Below are positions 2,051-25,560 of a DNA stretch of 25,839 nucleotides, piece after piece (within the stretch, counting starts at the first letter, position 1; the number at the start of each line of letters is the position of its first letter). The stretch comes from a virus: the IMG/VR virus record IMGVR_UViG_3300020020_000149, positions 1 to 25,839 of that record. One strand, written 5' to 3'. The notes beneath the pieces are model-generated. The model was not told the origin of the DNA. It was given only the letters and a program-made list of their open reading frames with translations, and did not search any database. The translations under genes were made by a program, and so were the position numbers.

Positions 2051-4222
2051 ATGCCTCTTTCTCAAGACAGCATTATCCAATCCAATAGCGGCAACTTTTC
2101 TGGCACTAGCGGCTCGGTATCTTTGCCTGCAAGTACAACCTCCGGTAATATGGTGGTTGTACTTGCAGTTGGCACATCTACTGGTGCCACCGATGTGACG
2201 CCAACGGACTTGGACATTACTGGTTTCGATAAGCATGGATTTGCTAGTGCTGATTCTTGGCAGAATGCTTTCATATTCTCAAAGGCTAATGTTGGCGTGG
2301 AGTCGCCTTGGACATTGACCGTTACTGTAAATGGTACTCAGCAGGTTTGTTGGTTCGCCATGGAGGTAGAAGGAGTCGACTACGAAATTTATGATGGAAC
2401 TGGCTTTGCTGGCGGTTACATGATGATTTCTGACTCATCGGTTTATTCCTTGGTGTCTTCGCAACAATTGGTTACTGGAACATCTGGAACCTATGAAGCT
2501 TTGGGTATAGCACTATTTTCTGCATCAGCAGCTGCCGGAGCTATTCCTGACATAGGTGGATATACGAACAACTGGCAAGAACTAGGATCTGTTTCTAGAA
2601 CGAATGGTACCCGGGGCATTCGTATGGCTGCGATAGTAAAGTCTCAGCAGTCTATTGCTCCACTTGATGTGACGGCGACTATTACTCCAGCCTCTCCCAC
2701 AAACAGTATAATGCTCGTCCTTAATGGTGCTACAGCTAAAGAGGCACCTGTTGTTCGAACAATGACTGGATTTGAGTACGGTACTGCCACAACGTTGACT
2801 TCTGTAGGAGTGTCCGGAGATATTGCTGTTGTCGACGAAGTCGTGGGCACTCCCGAAGTAGTATCTACGTTTAAACGATCGGGAACTTATAGTCTTAAAC
2901 TCACTTCGTCTGCCGCCGCCGAAAGTATTGCTTGGCTTGCCGGGTTCAATAAAGGATTAGATGGCGGCGTTGGTGAACCTTTGGTGGCACATCCGAGCTT
3001 TGCCATTTACTTCGATGGTGCCCTACCTGGTGTTGATATAGAACTGGCTTCTGTTGAGGCAGGATCTGCATCTAACAGCGTCAAGGTTTTCTATCGCACA
3101 GCTACGTCAAAAATTGGTGTTAAAGTCGGTACTGGTACTGAGATAGCATCAGACGCGGTGGTTGCCTTCAATAAATGGATAGGTCTTGAACTTCTATACG
3201 ATCCGCGTACTACTACGAATAAATGCGATTGGCAAATAGACTACGACAGCCTTGATGCTACAGTGCCAGTAAGTCAAACTCAGGCTACCAATACTGGTAT
3301 GACTGCTGCTCCGATAAGTAGGTTCCGTTTGGGTTGGCAAACTAGCACTACAGCTACTGTTTATTACGATGATGTCTTCTTCTCTGGGACACGTAAAGCA
3401 TATCCTATGGGATTGGTCAATATTCAGGGTTTGCGACCAGATCCGGGCGGCACTGTTACCACTTCAGGAACTAGTGCGAACTGGAATGTCTTTACTAGCA
3501 ATGGTGGCACACTTACAGCATTTAACTCAGCCAATGCCATTAGTGCTCTAGATGAAATTCCACCTACTATTGGTGCATCTTCTGATGGCTTGGCACAGAT
3601 TACGCTAAACACCAGTAATCTTGCGCGAGTACCACTGGAAACTTATGCTATGGGTGATAACAATGTCATTGGTCGGGCAGTAAGAGTATATGCTTTGGGA
3701 TGGGCAGCATCTACCTCAGCCGCTTCATTGATAGTCCAGGCATATGATGGGACTAATATTCATAGCATGGGTGGACATGTTACCGATGCTAACTTTGATA
3801 ATACCACGTATCGCTGGTTGACCAGAACATTGCGCAACAGTTTCGGTGGTCTTCCCTATGTTGTTACGCAAGCTAAACTCGATGCGCTCGCCGTAGAGTT
3901 TGGTAATTCAGGAGACGCGACTCCAGACGTGGGATTACACTGGATATTCGCTGAGCTTGCTACCCAACCGGCTGTGGCGCACAGTATTATGGAAATTGAA
4001 GATGGTTCGTTTAATGTGTATGCCTACCAAGATGAAATGGCTCAGTCGATTACCAGTCTGTTGGTGACTACTCCGAGCGGGTCTCGTGGTGCCACATTAG
4101 GTTGGACTATTGAAGGGTCGTCTGGTAATCAATATGTTGCGGCCAACACTGTTTGGTCAAAGTCAATTGGTGCCACGGACATTACTCAAGTAACCGAGAT
4201 TAGTTTTACTGCCGACGCGTAA
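2051..4222 (+). CDS. Large virion protein with concanavalin/LamG-like domain
   Basis: 723 residues, with AGGAG five bases before the ATG. Three regions are visible. Residues 1-230 form a beta-sandwich in which a hydrophobic GNMVVVLAV strand is followed by WTLTVTVNG and VCWFAMEVEGV. Residues about 233-455 read as a jelly-roll lectin-like domain: GFEYG at its start, a KRSGTYSLKL strand, FAIYFDG, a KWIGLELLYD strand and a closing YYDDVFFSG, the usual end of LamG/concanavalin folds. Residues 455-723 hold further beta repeats, including NVIGRAVRVYALGW and a GLHWIFAELAT segment. No catalytic residues are evident. It probably forms a carbohydrate-binding spike, fibre or decoration. The cluster position, before the tail chaperones, is early for a tail-tip receptor protein. 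Confidence 0.6.
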   Translation: MPLSQDSIIQSNSGNFSGTSGSVSLPASTTSGNMVVVLAVGTSTGATDVTPTDLDITGFDKHGFASADSWQNAFIFSKANVGVESPWTLTVTVNGTQQVCWFAMEVEGVDYEIYDGTGFAGGYMMISDSSVYSLVSSQQLVTGTSGTYEALGIALFSASAAAGAIPDIGGYTNNWQELGSVSRTNGTRGIRMAAIVKSQQSIAPLDVTATITPASPTNSIMLVLNGATAKEAPVVRTMTGFEYGTATTLTSVGVSGDIAVVDEVVGTPEVVSTFKRSGTYSLKLTSSAAAESIAWLAGFNKGLDGGVGEPLVAHPSFAIYFDGALPGVDIELASVEAGSASNSVKVFYRTATSKIGVKVGTGTEIASDAVVAFNKWIGLELLYDPRTTTNKCDWQIDYDSLDATVPVSQTQATNTGMTAAPISRFRLGWQTSTTATVYYDDVFFSGTRKAYPMGLVNIQGLRPDPGGTVTTSGTSANWNVFTSNGGTLTAFNSANAISALDEIPPTIGASSDGLAQITLNTSNLARVPLETYAMGDNNVIGRAVRVYALGWAASTSAASLIVQAYDGTNIHSMGGHVTDANFDNTTYRWLTRTLRNSFGGLPYVVTQAKLDALAVEFGNSGDATPDVGLHWIFAELATQPAVAHSIMEIEDGSFNVYAYQDEMAQSITSLLVTTPSGSRGATLGWTIEGSSGNQYVAANTVWSKSIGATDITQVTEISFTADA

Positions 4223-4244
4223 TGGAGGTGAGGGGGTGTAATAA

Positions 4245-6071
4245 ATGGCAATTCCAACAGTAGTTGGTGTGGGTGCTGTCATAAGCGGTGCGGCCGGTAT
4301 TACCCCTCCTTATCCCGTTGGTTATACTGCGGTAGCAAATGATGTAGCTTTTACTTTTATTGAATCTGCCACTGGCGATATCATCACGCCTCCTACAGGC
4401 TGGGTACAGGCAGTTCAGGCCAATGTTTCTACGGGTACTGCTCCGACTAAACTCACTGTACTTTGGCGTAGGTTTGCTGGTGGGGAAGCTGCTTCAGCAA
4501 TAGCAGATGCTGGCGACCACATGGTCGCCCGCATGATTGTTCTGAATGGCTGCATTACTACCGGAAACCCTTGGGATTTTGCCACAGCTACTACGGAACT
4601 AGTTGCCGATACTTCAGTATCCATTGCTGCCGGAACAACCCTAGGGGCTAACCGACTTATCTTGGCAGCTTTTGCTACTGGTCAAGATGTAGCTTCCACT
4701 GCGGGTACGTCTACTTGGGCAAATGCTACTTTAGCTAGTGTTACCGAGCGTACGGACAACTGGGTAACTACTGGTGGTGGTGGCGGATTTACCATGATGA
4801 CCGGCACCAAGGCGGTTGCTGGTTCTACTGGAGCTTGTACCTGTACCTTACTTCTGACAGCAAACTTCAAGGCTCAGGTTCTCATAGCAGTTATTGGAGC
4901 TTCGTCTGCACTTTCTGCTACAGTCAATCAAGTTACCAACACCAATACTGCGCAAGCCATAACTAAACTTAAGCGTAAAGCTGTAGGCCAGATAGTTGAG
5001 ACCGATGCAGCGCAGACAATAACTCGACGTAAGACCAGAGCAGTCGGTCAGATAGTAGAAACCCAAACAGCACAGACGGTAACGCGTCGCAAAACAAGGA
5101 CCATTGGTCAGGTCAATGAGATCAATGCATCCAATGCTGTTACTGAGCTTACTGGACAAACCATTGTTTTGGGAATAGCAACACAGACTGATAGTCCCCT
5201 AAATGTTACTGCGAAGAAATCCAGAGCAATTGGTCTAGTTACTCAAACAAATACTGCTCAGACAGTAAATGAAATAAAGTCCAAAGCTATTGGTCTAATA
5301 ACCGAAACAGATCTGGCCCAAGCCTTTACTCGGCGCAAGACCAAGACTGTCGGCCAGGTTGTTCAAACCAATACGGCTCAAGCATTGACCAAGCTTAAGT
5401 TTAAAGCAGTCGGCCGGGTCACTGAAACGCAAATTGCTCAGGCTATAACTCGACGCAAGTCTAGGGCCATAGGACAAGTAACAACTACCGATACTGCAAG
5501 TGCTATAGCCCGTAGCAAGACCAAAGTTATAGGACAAATAACAGAGACGCAGACAGCTCTGAGCATTACTGCTCCAGGATCACCAACTATTGTTGGTCAG
5601 ATAATTGAGTCTGGGTCGGCACGCACTATAACAAGCAGGAAAATAAAAGCAGTATCGCAAATAGTAGAAACTGATGTCTCCAGAGCACTAAGCAAACTAA
5701 AGACTAGGCTTGTTGGGCAGGCATTGTCAGTAGACGTTGCTTGGCAGATAATGGGGTTGACTGTGCCAACGGTTGCTATGGTTAATGAAACGGACCTTGC
5801 CAGGCAGATATCTGGCGGCGTGGCTCCACTAGACATTCACGGTTGGATGCCACTCATAGGGAAACATTGTATCTATCTGAAGCCAAAAACCGTTAACGGT
5901 AACGTAACTTACATTAAGAGAATTAGTGTGATGATTACGGCCTACGCTTCAGACGGTTACCCTATACTCAAAAGTAACGCTTCTGGGGTAACATACGGTA
6001 CCGCGTCCGTGGGGATACGACCAAGATCACATCCGGACGCCAATGAAGTTGACGTATATCAGTCATATTGA
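4245..6071 (+). CDS. Virion protein with about 15 tandem 20-residue VGQ-ETDTAQ repeats
   Basis: 608 residues, preceded by a GA-rich ribosome site. Residues 1-225 are a beta-sandwich (PPTGWVQAVQ, TKLTVLWRRFAGGEA, GDHMVARMIVLNG) resembling the first domain of the preceding protein, so the two may share a duplicated module. Residues about 228-523 are about 15 degenerate 20-residue units of the form VGQIVETDTAQAITRRKTKA, alternating an acidic ETD turn, an AQ-hydrophobic pair and a basic RRK patch. From memory such repeats occur in actinophage minor tail and capsid-associated proteins. The last about 80 residues are a separate small domain (WMPLIGKHCIYLKPK and later ASVGIRPRSHPDANEVDVYQSY). I infer an extended fibre or decoration. 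Unit number could vary between relatives. Confidence 0.6.
   Translation: MAIPTVVGVGAVISGAAGITPPYPVGYTAVANDVAFTFIESATGDIITPPTGWVQAVQANVSTGTAPTKLTVLWRRFAGGEAASAIADAGDHMVARMIVLNGCITTGNPWDFATATTELVADTSVSIAAGTTLGANRLILAAFATGQDVASTAGTSTWANATLASVTERTDNWVTTGGGGGFTMMTGTKAVAGSTGACTCTLLLTANFKAQVLIAVIGASSALSATVNQVTNTNTAQAITKLKRKAVGQIVETDAAQTITRRKTRAVGQIVETQTAQTVTRRKTRTIGQVNEINASNAVTELTGQTIVLGIATQTDSPLNVTAKKSRAIGLVTQTNTAQTVNEIKSKAIGLITETDLAQAFTRRKTKTVGQVVQTNTAQALTKLKFKAVGRVTETQIAQAITRRKSRAIGQVTTTDTASAIARSKTKVIGQITETQTALSITAPGSPTIVGQIIESGSARTITSRKIKAVSQIVETDVSRALSKLKTRLVGQALSVDVAWQIMGLTVPTVAMVNETDLARQISGGVAPLDIHGWMPLIGKHCIYLKPKTVNGNVTYIKRISVMITAYASDGYPILKSNASGVTYGTASVGIRPRSHPDANEVDVYQSY
4926..5813 (+). repeat. 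Degenerate in-frame tandem repeat, about 60 bp period, about 15 units
   Basis: Within the 608-residue virion gene, residues about 228-523 repeat every 20 or 21 codons. The clearest units (at about 4986, 5046, 5286, 5346, 5406 and 5466) share GQ-V/I-x-ET-x-x-AQ-x-I/V-T-R-R-K. Units near 5106-5220 and 5526-5580 are the most diverged, and two have an extra residue. Codon choice differs strongly from unit to unit, so the DNA is no longer a near-perfect repeat. This points to old duplication held by selection on the protein. Confidence 0.8.
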
Positions 6072-19206: not shown

Positions 19207-19390
19207 ATATTTCAATTACCCTTCCGTCACTGGAAACACACATCCAGAATTTGGCATGTATGTACGCAGACCCTCCGGCCGCTTTACAGTCTTTAATAAA
19301 TTCTCTTTGTCGCTCAGTCAACTCAAATATTCCGAAACACAAGAGTATGATTGTAACAGTTATCAATGTTCCAATTAATATTTTCCTCAC
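19169..19390 (-). CDS. Small membrane protein
   Basis: 73 residues from a GTG at 19390 that overlaps the polymerase stop (GTGA) and follows AGGAG. One transmembrane helix near the start (ILIGTLITVTIILLCFGIFE) is followed by a short soluble domain with two Cys (DCKAAGGSAYIHAKFWMCVS), which could form a disulphide outside the cytoplasm. Similar short membrane proteins with a GG-x-CV core occur in many phages. Their function is not known. Confidence 0.6.
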   Translation of the reverse strand: MRKILIGTLITVTIILLCFGIFELTERQREFIKDCKAAGGSAYIHAKFWMCVSSDGRVIEIYGTNHTLMALSK

Positions 19391-21690
19391 AATTCTCCTA
19401 GTCTAAAACCGTATGAAGTGTCCACCTTGAATGGAACGAAGCTTGTATAATCTCGTCCAGACTGCACCATCTCGTGAGTAATTAAATCAATGACGCCTTC
19501 GCGATCTTCGGGCTTACACTCGGCCACGATGTTGTCATGCACTAGCAATTTAATATCTGAATTGAATTCGGACTTAAGTTGCGGCTGAAGTCTGACGGCC
19601 GCCCGCACGCAAATATCCGAGGCGATAGACTGTGGCTTGAAGCTCAAGGCCTCATTGATGACATCTTCAAGATTGTCATTAGTAATGAGATGGAAGGATC
19701 GCTTGCGTCCGAACGGCGTCCATAGCTCTTGCTTTTCAATTACTTCATGTCTGATTGCAGCTTGCCAGGCAACCACGTCGGGAATCAGCTGCTTGAATTC
19801 ATTCATCAAATCTATGGCGTATTCGACTGGTTTCTTGAGTTCTTGAGCAATCGATTTTGCTTTGCGACCGTAAGAGTACCCATAGAAGATAGACTTGATT
19901 GAGACACGATTTTCTTTATCCCAAGAGCCAGTTCCCCAGATGCGATCGCACATATCATTGAAGATATCGATATTTGGATCTGAGAAGACTTTTTGCAAGT
20001 AGGTATCGCGCGCAAGGTCTGCAATGGTCCGTCCTTCTGCTTGGGAATAGTCAGCCTGAACGAGGATCATTCCTTCGTCAGCGGTAAACTGATTCCTGAT
20101 TGGCTTATCCCGCTTGACGTTCTGTTGATTAGGCTTTTTTGATGCCGTCCTTCCACTTGTGGTCGCATGCAGGGAGTAAGTAGTCCGAAGTTTTCCGTCT
20201 TTCACCTTGCGGCGCAGTCCCTTAATATACGTACCATAAGCTTTGGACAGGTTCCGGTTAGTCAGAATTAGATCGATGAATTGTTGAACGTCTGGCTCAC
20301 ACAAAGGATGTATTTTCTTGAGGAATTCCTTGTTCGTGGTCGGTATGGTCATACCTTTACCGGCAAAGTACTTCATAATCTGCATCCACGAACGAGGATT
20401 CAGCTCATAGCCAACGTGATCTTCAATTTTCTTTTGTGAACTGTCTATCTTCTTTAGGTATATTTTCTCTAGTTCAGCGTTCCATTCCAAGTCGAAATTC
20501 AGTGGAGACATCTCCACGCGCATGAGCATGTTAACTGCATCAATAAGAAAAGCGTGGACCTTATGTTGTTCCGGTCCCATCATGAGTTCGAGATATTCCA
20601 TCTCGTCCCAGGTACCGCCACAGTCATAAGCATTGTACTTGTACAGTAGATCCTTAGGAATCTTAGCGAAGCTACCGTCTTTACCTTTAGTGTACTGTGC
20701 TATTTCATCATCATATCGTGGTGCATTCTGGTCTTCGACCAGACGATGCTTCAAGCCATGCTGCCTAGGACGCTCATCCAAGGTATAGGACATAAGCATT
20801 CCGTCAGCATGTGCCTTCATTAATCCGAAGAGTGGTGAGAGTCCAAGGAGGTCAAATTTAACGTTCCATCCATCAATCGGAACAGTATCAAGTAGTGTTC
20901 TAAAGGCGGCGATACAGGCTTGATCTTTGAAAACCTTATCGCCAAAGACCACAACTTGCCGCTTGGCATAAGCAATACCAACGCACAGTAGATCGTAATC
21001 TTCGGGATGAGAATCGTCAATATCTTTATCCGAGGCAGCTTCAATGTCGATGACAATCCGCTTGACCGAACAAAGCCTATTGATAGCCACCAGTGCAGTT
21101 TTTGGATCATTGAAGACTTTATATTCTGGAGGCGTCCACGGAGCCAGTTCTTTTCCAAGTAATTTTCCTACATCATGAACGAACGAAGGGAATGAGTCTG
21201 GTGTTCTTAAACAAAAAGCTGGATGCCAGGTAGAAACGACAGGTCCAAACCGACTTGGCCTAGCTTGACCTATTCTAAGTTTTGATATAGAAGTGCTTTC
21301 GCTCAGTATTGCTTGGGCTCCAGTGCCGCCCACGGCAAGGATGATAGGAGCCTTGGCCCGACGTAAGTCCGACTCCAGGCGCGGCCTACAGGCTGCTATG
21401 GCACCTTTAGGAGGCTTCTCCGTGGGTCCTGAGGGTCGGCACGCGACCGTGTTGATCAGGGCAAGTTCTTTCCTTTTTAGTCCATGATATTCCATCACTC
21501 TTTCGAGCAATTCACCCGATGGACCAGTAAAAGGAATACCAGTCTTGGCCTCATAAGCTCCAGGAGCCTCACCTACAACAGAAACCTTTACTCCAGCCTT
21601 AGGTATCAGGCTAGGAACGTAGGAACCTTCTTCTCTCCATACACAGTCCTCGCAGCGAGCTAAAGGATGTTTCCTATTCGTCTTGTCCAT
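19387..21690 (-). CDS. UDG / 3'-5' exonuclease / family A DNA polymerase fusion
   Basis: 767 residues, with GGAG eight bases before the ATG. Residues 1-185 are a family-4-type uracil-DNA glycosylase: GEAPG (40-44), then GIPFTGPSG (51-59), NTVACRPSG (80-88) and WHPAFCLR (155-162). Cysteines 13, 16, 84 and 101 keep the C-x2-C-x67-C-x16-C spacing of the 4Fe-4S site. Residues 205-360 are a proofreading exonuclease with all motifs: D215/E217, NVKFD (276-280) and YNAYD (351-355). The polymerase follows: motif A DYSQAEGR (547-554), motif B K599 to Y607 with Tyr603 at the E. coli Phe762 position, and motif C VHDN (717-720), where Asn replaces the usual Glu. It should be the replicative polymerase. 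There is no 5'-3' exonuclease. Confidence 0.9.
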   Translation of the reverse strand: MDKTNRKHPLARCEDCVWREEGSYVPSLIPKAGVKVSVVGEAPGAYEAKTGIPFTGPSGELLERVMEYHGLKRKELALINTVACRPSGPTEKPPKGAIAACRPRLESDLRRAKAPIILAVGGTGAQAILSESTSISKLRIGQARPSRFGPVVSTWHPAFCLRTPDSFPSFVHDVGKLLGKELAPWTPPEYKVFNDPKTALVAINRLCSVKRIVIDIEAASDKDIDDSHPEDYDLLCVGIAYAKRQVVVFGDKVFKDQACIAAFRTLLDTVPIDGWNVKFDLLGLSPLFGLMKAHADGMLMSYTLDERPRQHGLKHRLVEDQNAPRYDDEIAQYTKGKDGSFAKIPKDLLYKYNAYDCGGTWDEMEYLELMMGPEQHKVHAFLIDAVNMLMRVEMSPLNFDLEWNAELEKIYLKKIDSSQKKIEDHVGYELNPRSWMQIMKYFAGKGMTIPTTNKEFLKKIHPLCEPDVQQFIDLILTNRNLSKAYGTYIKGLRRKVKDGKLRTTYSLHATTSGRTASKKPNQQNVKRDKPIRNQFTADEGMILVQADYSQAEGRTIADLARDTYLQKVFSDPNIDIFNDMCDRIWGTGSWDKENRVSIKSIFYGYSYGRKAKSIAQELKKPVEYAIDLMNEFKQLIPDVVAWQAAIRHEVIEKQELWTPFGRKRSFHLITNDNLEDVINEALSFKPQSIASDICVRAAVRLQPQLKSEFNSDIKLLVHDNIVAECKPEDREGVIDLITHEMVQSGRDYTSFVPFKVDTSYGFRLGEL

Positions 21691-23272: not shown

Positions 23273-24520
23273 TCACCCCACAAGCAAAAGATTGCGCTTC
23301 GCCCTAGTTATTGCAGTATAAAGCCATCTACTATAAGATTGTCGTCCAAGCCAATTCGCAAACCCTTTGGAAGGCTCAAATATGACTACTGAATCAAACT
23401 CAGATCCCTGTGCGGTGTGACATGTTAGTCCATAGCCAAAGTCCCACTTGTCCAGGTGTTGTCTACCCCAGATTGCTTTGTTGAGACCAAATTGTTCAGC
23501 AGAAATAGTTCCTTCGTATTCGCGACCATCGTCCAAAACCATATTGACATAGTAGGATTCTTTGTCCATAATCTTGAAGTCTTGAACAATGCCCATCGTT
23601 CCTTTGGGAATGCCTATTCTTCTGACATAGTCTCGACAGACTAAACGCTCGCCTAGAGTGGGATGACCAGAAAGACCGAGATTGTTCCGCCACATTCGGT
23701 TAAGGTCAGTGACTGATATTCTTCCTCTGTGTTTCGGATTCTCGTGGTCTACGTTAGCGAAGTATGTTATTCCTACAATGCTAGGATCGTTTGCATCAAA
23801 ATCAAGTTCGTCGCCTATCCTTACTTTTTTGACTCCAGGACCATGCTCGCCAAATTCAATATCGAAGCCCTTCCTGGCTTGATAGGCGACCTTCAATATT
23901 GCTGAGTCCTTGGCCTGCCTCTGTATTTCGGTAAGAGTAAAGTCTGGGTATTGCATGAGGTCGAACTTGCCCAAAACCTTCTGTATTTGACTATCTTCAA
24001 TGGCTTCGAGCTGTCCGTGATCACCAATAAACAGAACCTTTATGTTATTACGTGTGGAATCTAGTAGGTCTTGATATACCTCACGGTTAATCATAGAACT
24101 TTCGTCGCATATGATGAGCTTTATGTTTGAATTAACATTAGCTTTTGTGTGAAAGTCCAAATAGCAACCGCACTTGTTGTAGCCTGACCGACCGTGACAG
24201 ATGTTCCTAAGAGTCTCCGTGAGCGGACAATCATCGCAGTGGCGTTCCTCCTTCATATAGAAGGTTTTGTGTACAGTAAGCGCATTTGCTATAATGCCGT
24301 TTAGGGCCAATCTGTTCTGCACTACCAGTGTAGCCTTGTTTGTTGGTGCAGAATATATAACTTCACTACTACTGATCCCTAGAAATTCATGAATAAAAGG
24401 GATCAGGGAGCTTTTACCTGTGCCTGCGAGACCTCCAAGTTTGAATGTTCTTACTGAAGTTTGGTGGAACCACTTATGAATCAAATTAAGTGCTTCCTCC
24501 TGATCACCTGTAGGAATCAC
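23273..24520 (-). CDS. SF1B helicase, RecD/Dda-like, with a cysteine-rich insertion
   Basis: 415 residues. A GTG start overlaps the primase stop (GTGA) and follows AGGTAGG. All helicase motifs are present: Walker A GGLAGTGKSS (29-38), motif Ia APTNKAT, Walker B ICDESSM (137-143), GDHGQLEAI, TEIQRQ, the CHTAQGSEFDSVVIF motif near the end, and YTAITRAKRNLLLVG. The family unwinds DNA 5'-3' and helps replication restart. Between motif Ia and Walker B lies an insertion with Cys95, 98, 108, 117 and 119 (HCDDCPLTETLRNICHGRSG, then CGCYLDFH), which may hold a zinc or iron-sulphur site. The RecD N-terminal extension is absent. Confidence 0.85.
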   Translation of the reverse strand: MIPTGDQEEALNLIHKWFHQTSVRTFKLGGLAGTGKSSLIPFIHEFLGISSSEVIYSAPTNKATLVVQNRLALNGIIANALTVHKTFYMKEERHCDDCPLTETLRNICHGRSGYNKCGCYLDFHTKANVNSNIKLIICDESSMINREVYQDLLDSTRNNIKVLFIGDHGQLEAIEDSQIQKVLGKFDLMQYPDFTLTEIQRQAKDSAILKVAYQARKGFDIEFGEHGPGVKKVRIGDELDFDANDPSIVGITYFANVDHENPKHRGRISVTDLNRMWRNNLGLSGHPTLGERLVCRDYVRRIGIPKGTMGIVQDFKIMDKESYYVNMVLDDGREYEGTISAEQFGLNKAIWGRQHLDKWDFGYGLTCHTAQGSEFDSVVIFEPSKGFANWLGRQSYSRWLYTAITRAKRNLLLVG

Positions 24521-25560
24521 ATTAACCTACCTCGTTTGCCACGGAGCAATCTTATCGCTCTTATTTCGGAAATCCCCGTTCTTTTAACCAAGAAAGCAAT
24601 TTCAGCTAATAGCGCATCCATTTCAGTTTTGACTTGATTGAATGTTGGTATATCTAGTTCACAAACATCTATTTGACTGGTTTCATTTATGGGAATATTT
24701 GCTAAGGCCCATTCCAACAGGGCATTCCATTCGGCTCCGAGATCACGCGGCCTCGTAGCAGAACAAAAAGTTTGGGACAATTCGTCCAATGCGTCCGATA
24801 CTCCGGCGTGTCCGTTTACTGCTGCCGTAAGCAGGGTGAAAATAACTGATATTCCAGTGTCATGCAGGCCCGTCTCATAGGAGTCAATGAGCTTTTCTTT
24901 GCACATATCCATAAGCATCGACATATAGGTGCAAACTTGATCGTCATTGAAAATCTCCAGACCAAAGTTGTCAACCTCAGAATTGGGGCCAAACACCATT
25001 TGGTCATCCTTTTTGAGAGCAAGTGCCCATTCAATGGGAAGCTCAGCAATGTCATCGATCGATGGTATGGAGTAGTCTGGGATAATATCTCCGCCCAGAC
25101 CTTGATACCACATGTATCTGGATTCAGATTCTCGATTATATGACGGCAGGACCATCACATACCTGTGAGTATGTTGAATTATGGTGATGCCGTTGATATT
25201 GCTGCGCCACCTTTTAGATTGAACCGATTTGGGAATCCTATATAAGAGCTTTCCGCCCTTGCCGCCTCGGGAATCCGAATTCCACGTGATGGGCAGCTGT
25301 CCCAATTCAGCTTCGACTTCCTCTAACCTTTTAAGATCTCCCTTGTAAGCATCTATATCCAATGCTATTACATTCGGCGGTAGTCTTAAGGCTACATTGT
25401 ACGATTTATGTGTATTAAGCCATTTATTTATTTGAGTTATGTTGACTAATGGGTGTCGTCCAGAGGCGTCTTTAACAGCTAGAAGCTTCCCTGATGCTGG
25501 AAGAGGACTAAAACCGGCTCCAAAGTATGCTAATGCACTAACCTCATATGGATTGAACAA
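24517..25560 (-). CDS. Primase/polymerase (AEP Prim-Pol domain)
   Basis: 347 residues from a TTG at 25560 that follows GGTGA; no ATG precedes the domain. Residues 5-160 match the bifunctional Prim-Pol fold: FGAGFSPLPASGKLLAV at the start, the metal-binding D68-x-D70 in NVIALDIDAYKGD, a SRGGKGGKLLYRIP segment, and IIQHTHRYVMVLPS with H132, close to the HHRYxxxxPS element of actinophage members. Classical members have a His in the second motif, and here it reads KLLYR. The remaining 190 residues are helical with no helicase motifs, so unwinding must come from the adjacent SF1 gene. It should lay down primers for the family A polymerase. Confidence 0.8.
   Translation of the reverse strand: MFNPYEVSALAYFGAGFSPLPASGKLLAVKDASGRHPLVNITQINKWLNTHKSYNVALRLPPNVIALDIDAYKGDLKRLEEVEAELGQLPITWNSDSRGGKGGKLLYRIPKSVQSKRWRSNINGITIIQHTHRYVMVLPSYNRESESRYMWYQGLGGDIIPDYSIPSIDDIAELPIEWALALKKDDQMVFGPNSEVDNFGLEIFNDDQVCTYMSMLMDMCKEKLIDSYETGLHDTGISVIFTLLTAAVNGHAGVSDALDELSQTFCSATRPRDLGAEWNALLEWALANIPINETSQIDVCELDIPTFNQVKTEMDALLAEIAFLVKRTGISEIRAIRLLRGKRGRLM

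Follow-up and report, generated by a model that had tools for sequence, protein, structure and literature searches.

The window, the whole stretch of 25,839 nucleotides that was analysed, is a complete IMG/VR virus record and probably a genome fragment. Its minus strand carries, at 19387-21690, a single open reading frame of 767 aa with an ATG start and, 7 nt ahead of it, a GGAG; the plus strand across the same interval has many stops. The encoded protein joins a uracil-DNA glycosylase (UDG), a 3'-5' exonuclease and a polymerase in one chain, in the order found in PaBG and SPO1. The gene lies within a minus-strand replication block together with a Prim-Pol type primase and a Dda/RecD-like helicase. 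The features are as follows.

19387..21690, minus strand: UDG-exonuclease-family A polymerase (UDG-exo-PolA) fusion gene, 767 aa (ORF and translation, Pfam UDG and DNA_pol_A, AlphaFold2)
21136..21690, minus strand: family-4-like UDG domain, aa 1-185 (PF03167, TIGR00758, fold match to 1ui0)
21643..21654, minus strand: C13-x2-C16, predicted ligands one and two of the 4Fe-4S cluster, unchanged across 42 full-length fusions
21559..21573, minus strand: motif 1 GEAPG, aa 40-44, with E41 equivalent to E41 of Thermus thermophilus UDGa (TthUDGa; pocket role, PMC5387724)
21406..21441, minus strand: motif 3 loop, with C84 as predicted third cysteine ligand and Pro89 where the water-positioning Asn89 would be (sequence comparison)
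21388..21390, minus strand: C101, the fourth predicted cluster ligand (sequence comparison)
21205..21225, minus strand: motif 2 HPAFCLR, aa 156-162, with H156 equivalent to TthUDGa H155 and R162 aligned with UdgX R184 (roles, PMC5387724, PMC10359453)
20575..21126, minus strand: 3'-5' exonuclease domain, aa 189-372, with D215/E217, D280 and Y352/D356 (invariant columns; Klenow fold match)
19390..20523, minus strand: family A polymerase domain, aa 390-767, with motif A D547/E552, motif B K599 and Y603 (the Taq F667 position) and motif C H718-D719 (PF00476)
23273..24520, minus strand: neighbouring Dda/RecD-like helicase (phrog_325, E 3.9e-69; AAA_30)
24517..25560, minus strand: neighbouring Prim-Pol type primase (PF09250, E 7.7e-14; phrog_1156)

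Scans of the 25,839-nt window for tRNAs and Rfam families gave no matches. On the plus strand, positions 4245-6071 encode a 608-aa protein with many 'VGQIVETDTAQTITRRKTKAVGQ'-type repeats; it adjoins structural genes and is probably tail or fibre-like.

Domain searches and structure prediction uphold the view, first taken from the sequence by itself, that this interval encodes a proofreading family A polymerase with a UDG fused to it. Pfam places the UDG (PF03167) at residues 29-166, over the cut-off with E 1.8e-26, and DNA_pol_A (PF00476) at residues 405-762 with E 9.6e-56; the latter match and the presence of catalytic motifs A, B and C assign the C-terminal part to family A. AlphaFold2, given 42 window and locus proteins as input, modelled the full-length chain with a mean pLDDT of 92.5 and a pTM of 0.88. 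The junction between UDG and exonuclease is confident, so the UDG looks fixed rather than loosely hung. The E-values and the confident model rule out chance as the source of the fusion.

The exonuclease and polymerase in the same chain appear intact, as had been claimed. Exonuclease residues D215, E217, D280, Y352 and D356, the metal-ligand set, and polymerase residues D547, E552, K599, Y607 and R664 are invariant in the 42 full-length fusions, and D719 is nearly so. In the Pfam search of the window protein, PF01612 did not reach E 1, and a phmmer search of the exonuclease domain by itself against the PDB returned no match. The exonuclease assignment therefore rests on the invariant columns and on the fold, since the exonuclease-polymerase part of the model matches Klenow in Foldseek (1kfs, 616 columns).

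The UDG domain retains the features that define family 4, with one exception. Its cysteines C13, C16, C84 and C101 follow the spacing C-x2-C-x67-C-x16-C exactly, and GEAPG (aa 40-44) and HPA (aa 156-158) are present, as the sequence-only reading had it. Motif 1 of family 4 is defined as GE(A/G)PG (PMC10359453), which GEAPG fits, and motif 2 reads H156-P-A-F-C-L-R with its histidine aligned to TthUDGa H155. All six positions of the TthUDGa uracil pocket (E41, G/A42, E47, F54, N80 and H155; PMC5387724) are kept in the window UDG, and E41, E47, F54 and N80 even share residue numbers. The exception, missed in the sequence-only reading, is motif 3, in which the expected Asn89 is Pro89. In family 4 the iron-sulphur cluster is proposed to lend stability to the protein and to a substrate-binding loop, and Cys-to-Ser changes cost only ∼40% of activity (PMC5295032). 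The predicted cluster of the window protein is expected to keep the DNA-binding loop stable and to have no chemical role.

Comparison of the UDG part (residues 1-185) with family 4 and family 5 structures, as had been proposed, favours family 4. Modelled alone, the domain is weaker than in the full-length model (pLDDT 76.8). This model matches the family 4 structures 1vk2, 1ui0 and 4zbx with Z of 19.5-19.8 (19.6 to 1ui0, over 170 residues) and the family 5 structure 2d3y with Z of 15.2; the predicted fold is that of family 4. The score against TIGR00758, the NCBIfam model for UDGa, is homologous (91.5 bits, E 4.8e-26) but below the curated cut-off of 125.3, and we therefore term the domain family-4-like. 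UdgX structures match with Z up to 19.9. Covalent uracil binding of the UdgX type was nonetheless rejected: motif 1 is GEAPG and not GEQPG, the loop is RPSGPTEK and not KRRIH, and TIGR03914 gives 73.6 bits against 190.

The change in motif 3 is specific to the clade of the window. The loop CRPSGPTEKPPK has Pro89 where Thermus UDGa has Asn89, a correspondence taken from an alignment of the window with 1ui0 that is gap-free at this motif. The pattern CRPxGPT[EQ]xPPK is found in the window and in every relative at 55-87% identity (L001, L023, L025, L026, L028 and L029), and Asn89 is retained in 86 of 112 fusions that are otherwise intact. In the Thermus enzyme, Asn89 positions the attacking water, and the N89A variant keeps a nearly unchanged Km with a lowered k2, such that k2/Km falls from 2.4e5 to 3.5e4 and about one seventh is left (PMC5387724). 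Because Asn89 is replaced in the window and in all its nearest relatives, turnover is probably reduced. The remaining pocket residues of the window are intact despite Pro89, and the substitution is expected, by inference from the Thermus variant, to leave uracil binding good and to make excision slower.

Linkage of the UDG to the polymerase is nearly universal among relatives. A UDG-seeded search of viral contigs found 80 loci, mostly UDG-exo-pol fusions, with search patterns that demand a GEAPG-like motif. Conservation of GEAPG in that set is partly an effect of the search pattern, and the set seeded with the polymerase was therefore used for conservation statistics. With the polymerase as the only seed, a UDG lies in the same ORF in 76 of 78 new loci, and the two exceptions (L120 and L162) start at a contig end. 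Free variation of the cysteines and the motif 1 glutamate, which the sequence-only reading had named as evidence against it, is not seen. Of 60 non-redundant polymerase-seeded fusions, all 60 retain the four cysteines, 54 retain E41, 57 N80, 55 H156 and 53 all seven residues; across all 126 non-redundant fusions, the corresponding counts are 124, 117, 117, 121 and 112. Both sets of counts cover sequences with every position aligned, and gapped L145, from which the motif and cysteines are gone by deletion, falls outside them.

Within the 42 full-length fusions, E47, F54, N80, C84, C101 and H156 of the UDG are as invariant as the catalytic residues of the exonuclease and polymerase. Estimates of dN/dS against the nearest relative are ∼0.10 for the UDG, 0.06 for the exonuclease and 0.07 for the polymerase, rough values because dS is near saturation. 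Exactly one UDG is present per record in 28 of 28 records of the window's group, window included. A cellular origin or prophage hosts for the fusion were considered in a single scan of genome contigs and set aside: it gave only eight weak matches (27-32% identity), most of them from Lachnospiraceae genomes, and prophages may exist nonetheless.

Catalytic residues have nevertheless changed repeatedly while the module was kept. Mapped on a polymerase-domain tree (114 rows, a quick method with SH-aLRT only, and several long branches), the UDG shows a minimum of nine switches in catalytic state and of three in cysteine state. In the 19-row clade that holds the window, E41, N80 and H156 are kept in every member. 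Elsewhere, catalytically altered fusions mostly retain all four cysteines. These include GGMPS with NPY in L154 and L161, GDAPN in Serratia Serbin and Yersinia P744, and GDSPI in Youna2. SPO1-like phi18, with QENPF and no cluster cysteines, is the only listed altered example without the four. ARSPG or SRSPG with NNPA replaces GEAPG and HPA in L173, L177 and L180, which keep the four cysteines and, judged by these motifs, probably form a non-catalytic UDG clade. No second UDG was found in phages with decayed UDGs except at two tandem-duplicate loci, several of the searched records being short fragments. At these two loci (L074 and L075), two UDG-polymerase genes are adjacent, and the second UDG is decayed (GEFPS, with Thr at position 80).

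On this tree, the UDG module outlives catalysis. Since catalytic residues changed at least nine times with cysteines mostly kept, cluster retention alone is no argument for catalysis; retained cysteines are evidence for a folded module. The retained cluster and active site had been read as signs of a working enzyme. The four cysteines and uracil pocket are indeed intact, but the loss of Asn89 and the history of altered catalysis in relatives weaken that conclusion. Conservation of the fusion, the one altered catalytic residue and repeated catalytic loss in relatives together suggest that the domain does more than repair.

Some loci depart from the common layout. In L066 (IMGVR_UViG_3300043313_000733, ORF 2315-5614), a LAGLIDADG-domain intein lies inside the UDG, with the Fe-S ligand Cys84 directly after the splice point. 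An intein-like insert splits UDG motif 2 of L138 between HPAY and CLR (L138_p2_420, frame 3, 1087 aa), and others lie within polymerase motifs of L040 and L044. A 1280-aa frame at L062:2441-6280 comprises an N6/N4 DNA methyltransferase, a proline-rich linker, a UDG, an exonuclease and a polymerase. At L091:1079-4537 and in L092 (also L182 and L183), a DnaE-type family C polymerase of 1153 aa carries an intact-looking C-terminal UDG. This is an independent fusion, on two contigs of seemingly one virus, and no named phage covering 80% of the L091/L092 protein was found.

Trimmed UDG modules were observed in L145 and L146. In Gordonia phage BillDoor (L195), residues 1-151 match the UDG with an hhalign probability of 84.7 (E 7e-6), and with 98.0 when the profile is rich in intermediates, a profile that itself contains BillDoor; by sequence, this N-terminal region reads as a clear trimmed UDG relic. 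The polymerase of T5 is highly processive, and its N-terminal ∼130 residues form a unique region. For the T5-type N-terminal region, the intermediate-rich profile gives 79% (E 1.5e-5, with shuffled sequences at most 1.7%) and the profile without intermediates 7.8%. Residues 1-140 of L196 and L197 (T5-like and Vibrio D346 polymerases) are the candidates. The T5-type region is a probable UDG relic only under the intermediate-rich profile, and is offered as a lead, not a result.

Gene content does not connect the window clade to uracil or modified-base metabolism. Within the phage group of the window, a trimeric dUTPase was found in 1 of 27 records, ThyX in 1 of 28 and thymidylate synthase in 2 of 28; an endonuclease IV homologue was found in none of the 28 records searched. 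The link is therefore not supported for this clade, and the uracil-pool genes (dUTPase, ThyX and thymidylate synthase) give no support to the explanation preferred below. Six rows of UDG-polymerases form a separate clade (phi18, Serratia Serbin, Yersinia P744 and others; L003, L005, L011, L015 and the records behind L073 and L093) that does have genes for thymidylate synthase-like proteins or pyrimidine hydroxymethylases nearby. Since its UDGs are partly intact and partly decayed, the state of the UDG follows no simple rule with respect to these neighbours.

We suggest, with a probability of roughly 0.55, that the protein serves a tailed phage as its replicative family A polymerase and that its family-4-type UDG is a fixed, conserved module of the replicase, which would hold and scan DNA and recognise uracil, with slow excision in the clade of the window. 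The module would sit beside the polymerase-exonuclease core. Uracil arising from dUMP incorporation or cytosine deamination during replication would be flipped into the UDG pocket and, in intact lineages, excised too. The abasic site would be handed to host enzymes, a step proposed because no endonuclease IV homologue was found in the records searched. In the window clade, Pro89 would slow hydrolysis and largely spare binding, shifting the role to recognition and tethering. The fusion, the residues, their conservation and the repeated loss of catalysis are observed and the fold is predicted, whereas scanning, tethering and slow excision are what we infer for the module. Vaccinia D4, also a UDG, offers a precedent: its support for processive synthesis does not depend on catalysis, and it may inspect newly made DNA for uracil (PMC4450493). 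Abasic sites made next to a replicating polymerase could harm replication, and Pro89 and the subthreshold TIGR00758 score may be signs that the domain has lost its use as a glycosylase.

One alternative is a full uracil-excision enzyme with repair as its main job, which would clear uracil at the fork at the normal speed of family 4 UDGs. Retention of all six pocket positions, the family 4 fold match and the presence of E41, N80, H156 and the four cysteines in 112 of 126 non-redundant fusions are consistent with such an enzyme. We consider it unlikely given the replacement of the water-positioning residue throughout the window clade; moreover, repeated loss of catalysis with the module kept and no other UDG gained shows that repair cannot be the sole use across the family. 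The same losses, at no fewer than nine places in the tree and with cysteines and fusion mostly kept, would be expected of a purely structural domain, a D4-like tether or processivity factor for which uracil recognition is irrelevant in the window protein. Module relics that persist in some phage polymerases and the catalysis-independent essential role of D4 (PMC4450493) point the same way. This reading is at least as doubtful, however, because E41, N80 and H156 are kept throughout the 19-row clade, and because F54, N80 and H156 are as fixed as polymerase catalytic residues, which is unexpected for structure alone.

Archaeal family B polymerases pause at uracil via a different pocket. As a uracil sensor, the UDG would bind uracil in front of the polymerase or in freshly made DNA and, without cutting, pause synthesis. 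The Thermus N89A variant, with its almost unchanged Km and lower k2, offers a parallel to an intact pocket from which the water-positioning residue is gone in the whole nearest clade, and the model places the UDG rigidly; but N89A still cleaves (PMC5387724) and the main catalytic residue, H156, is kept, which makes a sensor of this kind highly improbable. A broader conjecture, also unlikely, makes the UDG fold an ancient and general component of phage family A replicases that holds and scans DNA, with excision as an option lost many times, and has Pro89 turn the UDG of the window clade into a uracil sensor with little cutting. If true, module relics would account for N-terminal regions without an assignment in other phage polymerases, T5 included.

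The UDG-exo-PolA architecture is already known from SPO1-like phages, PaBG gp205 and Thermus phage phiLo, and many annotated phages carry it under the simple name of DNA polymerase. The sequence-only reading had pointed to a UDG-like segment in the SPO1 polymerase and called the theme not new. That holds for the architecture, but the fusion is far wider than SPO1, and in phi18, the one SPO1-like example examined, the UDG is degenerate. Pseudomonas phage PaBG gp205 and its relatives, described in 2020, have an N-terminal UDG, a 3'-5' exonuclease and a family A polymerase in one chain, in the same order as the window, to which we liken them by published description; they are jumbo phages, the PaBG UDG was modelled on 1ui0 and its function is only proposed (PMC7412058). 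Bacillus phage phi18 (L003) likewise has its UDG, exonuclease and polymerase in one ORF, of 939 aa, but unlike the window has QENPF for GEAPG, Ser for Asn80 and none of the four cluster cysteines. The family A polymerase of phiLo has been solved with its N-terminal UDG (PDB 9qhs), which the window UDG matches with Z of 15.6 over 160 residues; it differs in its 1142-aa chain and in a UDG at 24% identity, and a literature search found no paper on it.

Among single enzymes, TthUDGa (1ui0) resembles the window UDG in fold (Z 19.6), at 29% identity, and in the four cysteines, motif 1 Glu, E47, F54, N80 and motif 2 His, but is free-standing and has Asn89 where the window has Pro89. The D4 UDG of vaccinia has no Fe-S cluster, and its polymerase partner belongs to family B. 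With A20 and E9 it forms part of a viral replicase, as proposed for the window UDG, but it is a family 1 UDG and a separate subunit joined via A20 (PMC4450493). The PolA proteins of Arthrobacter phage Anansi and Curtobacterium phage Yappy are among the nearest named-phage matches to the exonuclease-polymerase part (∼30% identity) and have only ∼96-103 aa ahead of the exonuclease. With no recognisable UDG, they indicate that the UDG is dispensable for the polymerase core in other lineages; a reading of their N-termini as UDG relics is not supported (hhalign probability 0.8). The fusion is a natural case of a uracil glycosylase and a replicative polymerase in a single chain; elsewhere, such a link is known from vaccinia. 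Relatives with intact, altered and trimmed UDGs form a ready series for telling apart uracil action, processivity or both, and polymerases that see uracil would be useful as reagents. What the window adds to the known UDG-exo-PolA kind is the clade-specific change in motif 3.
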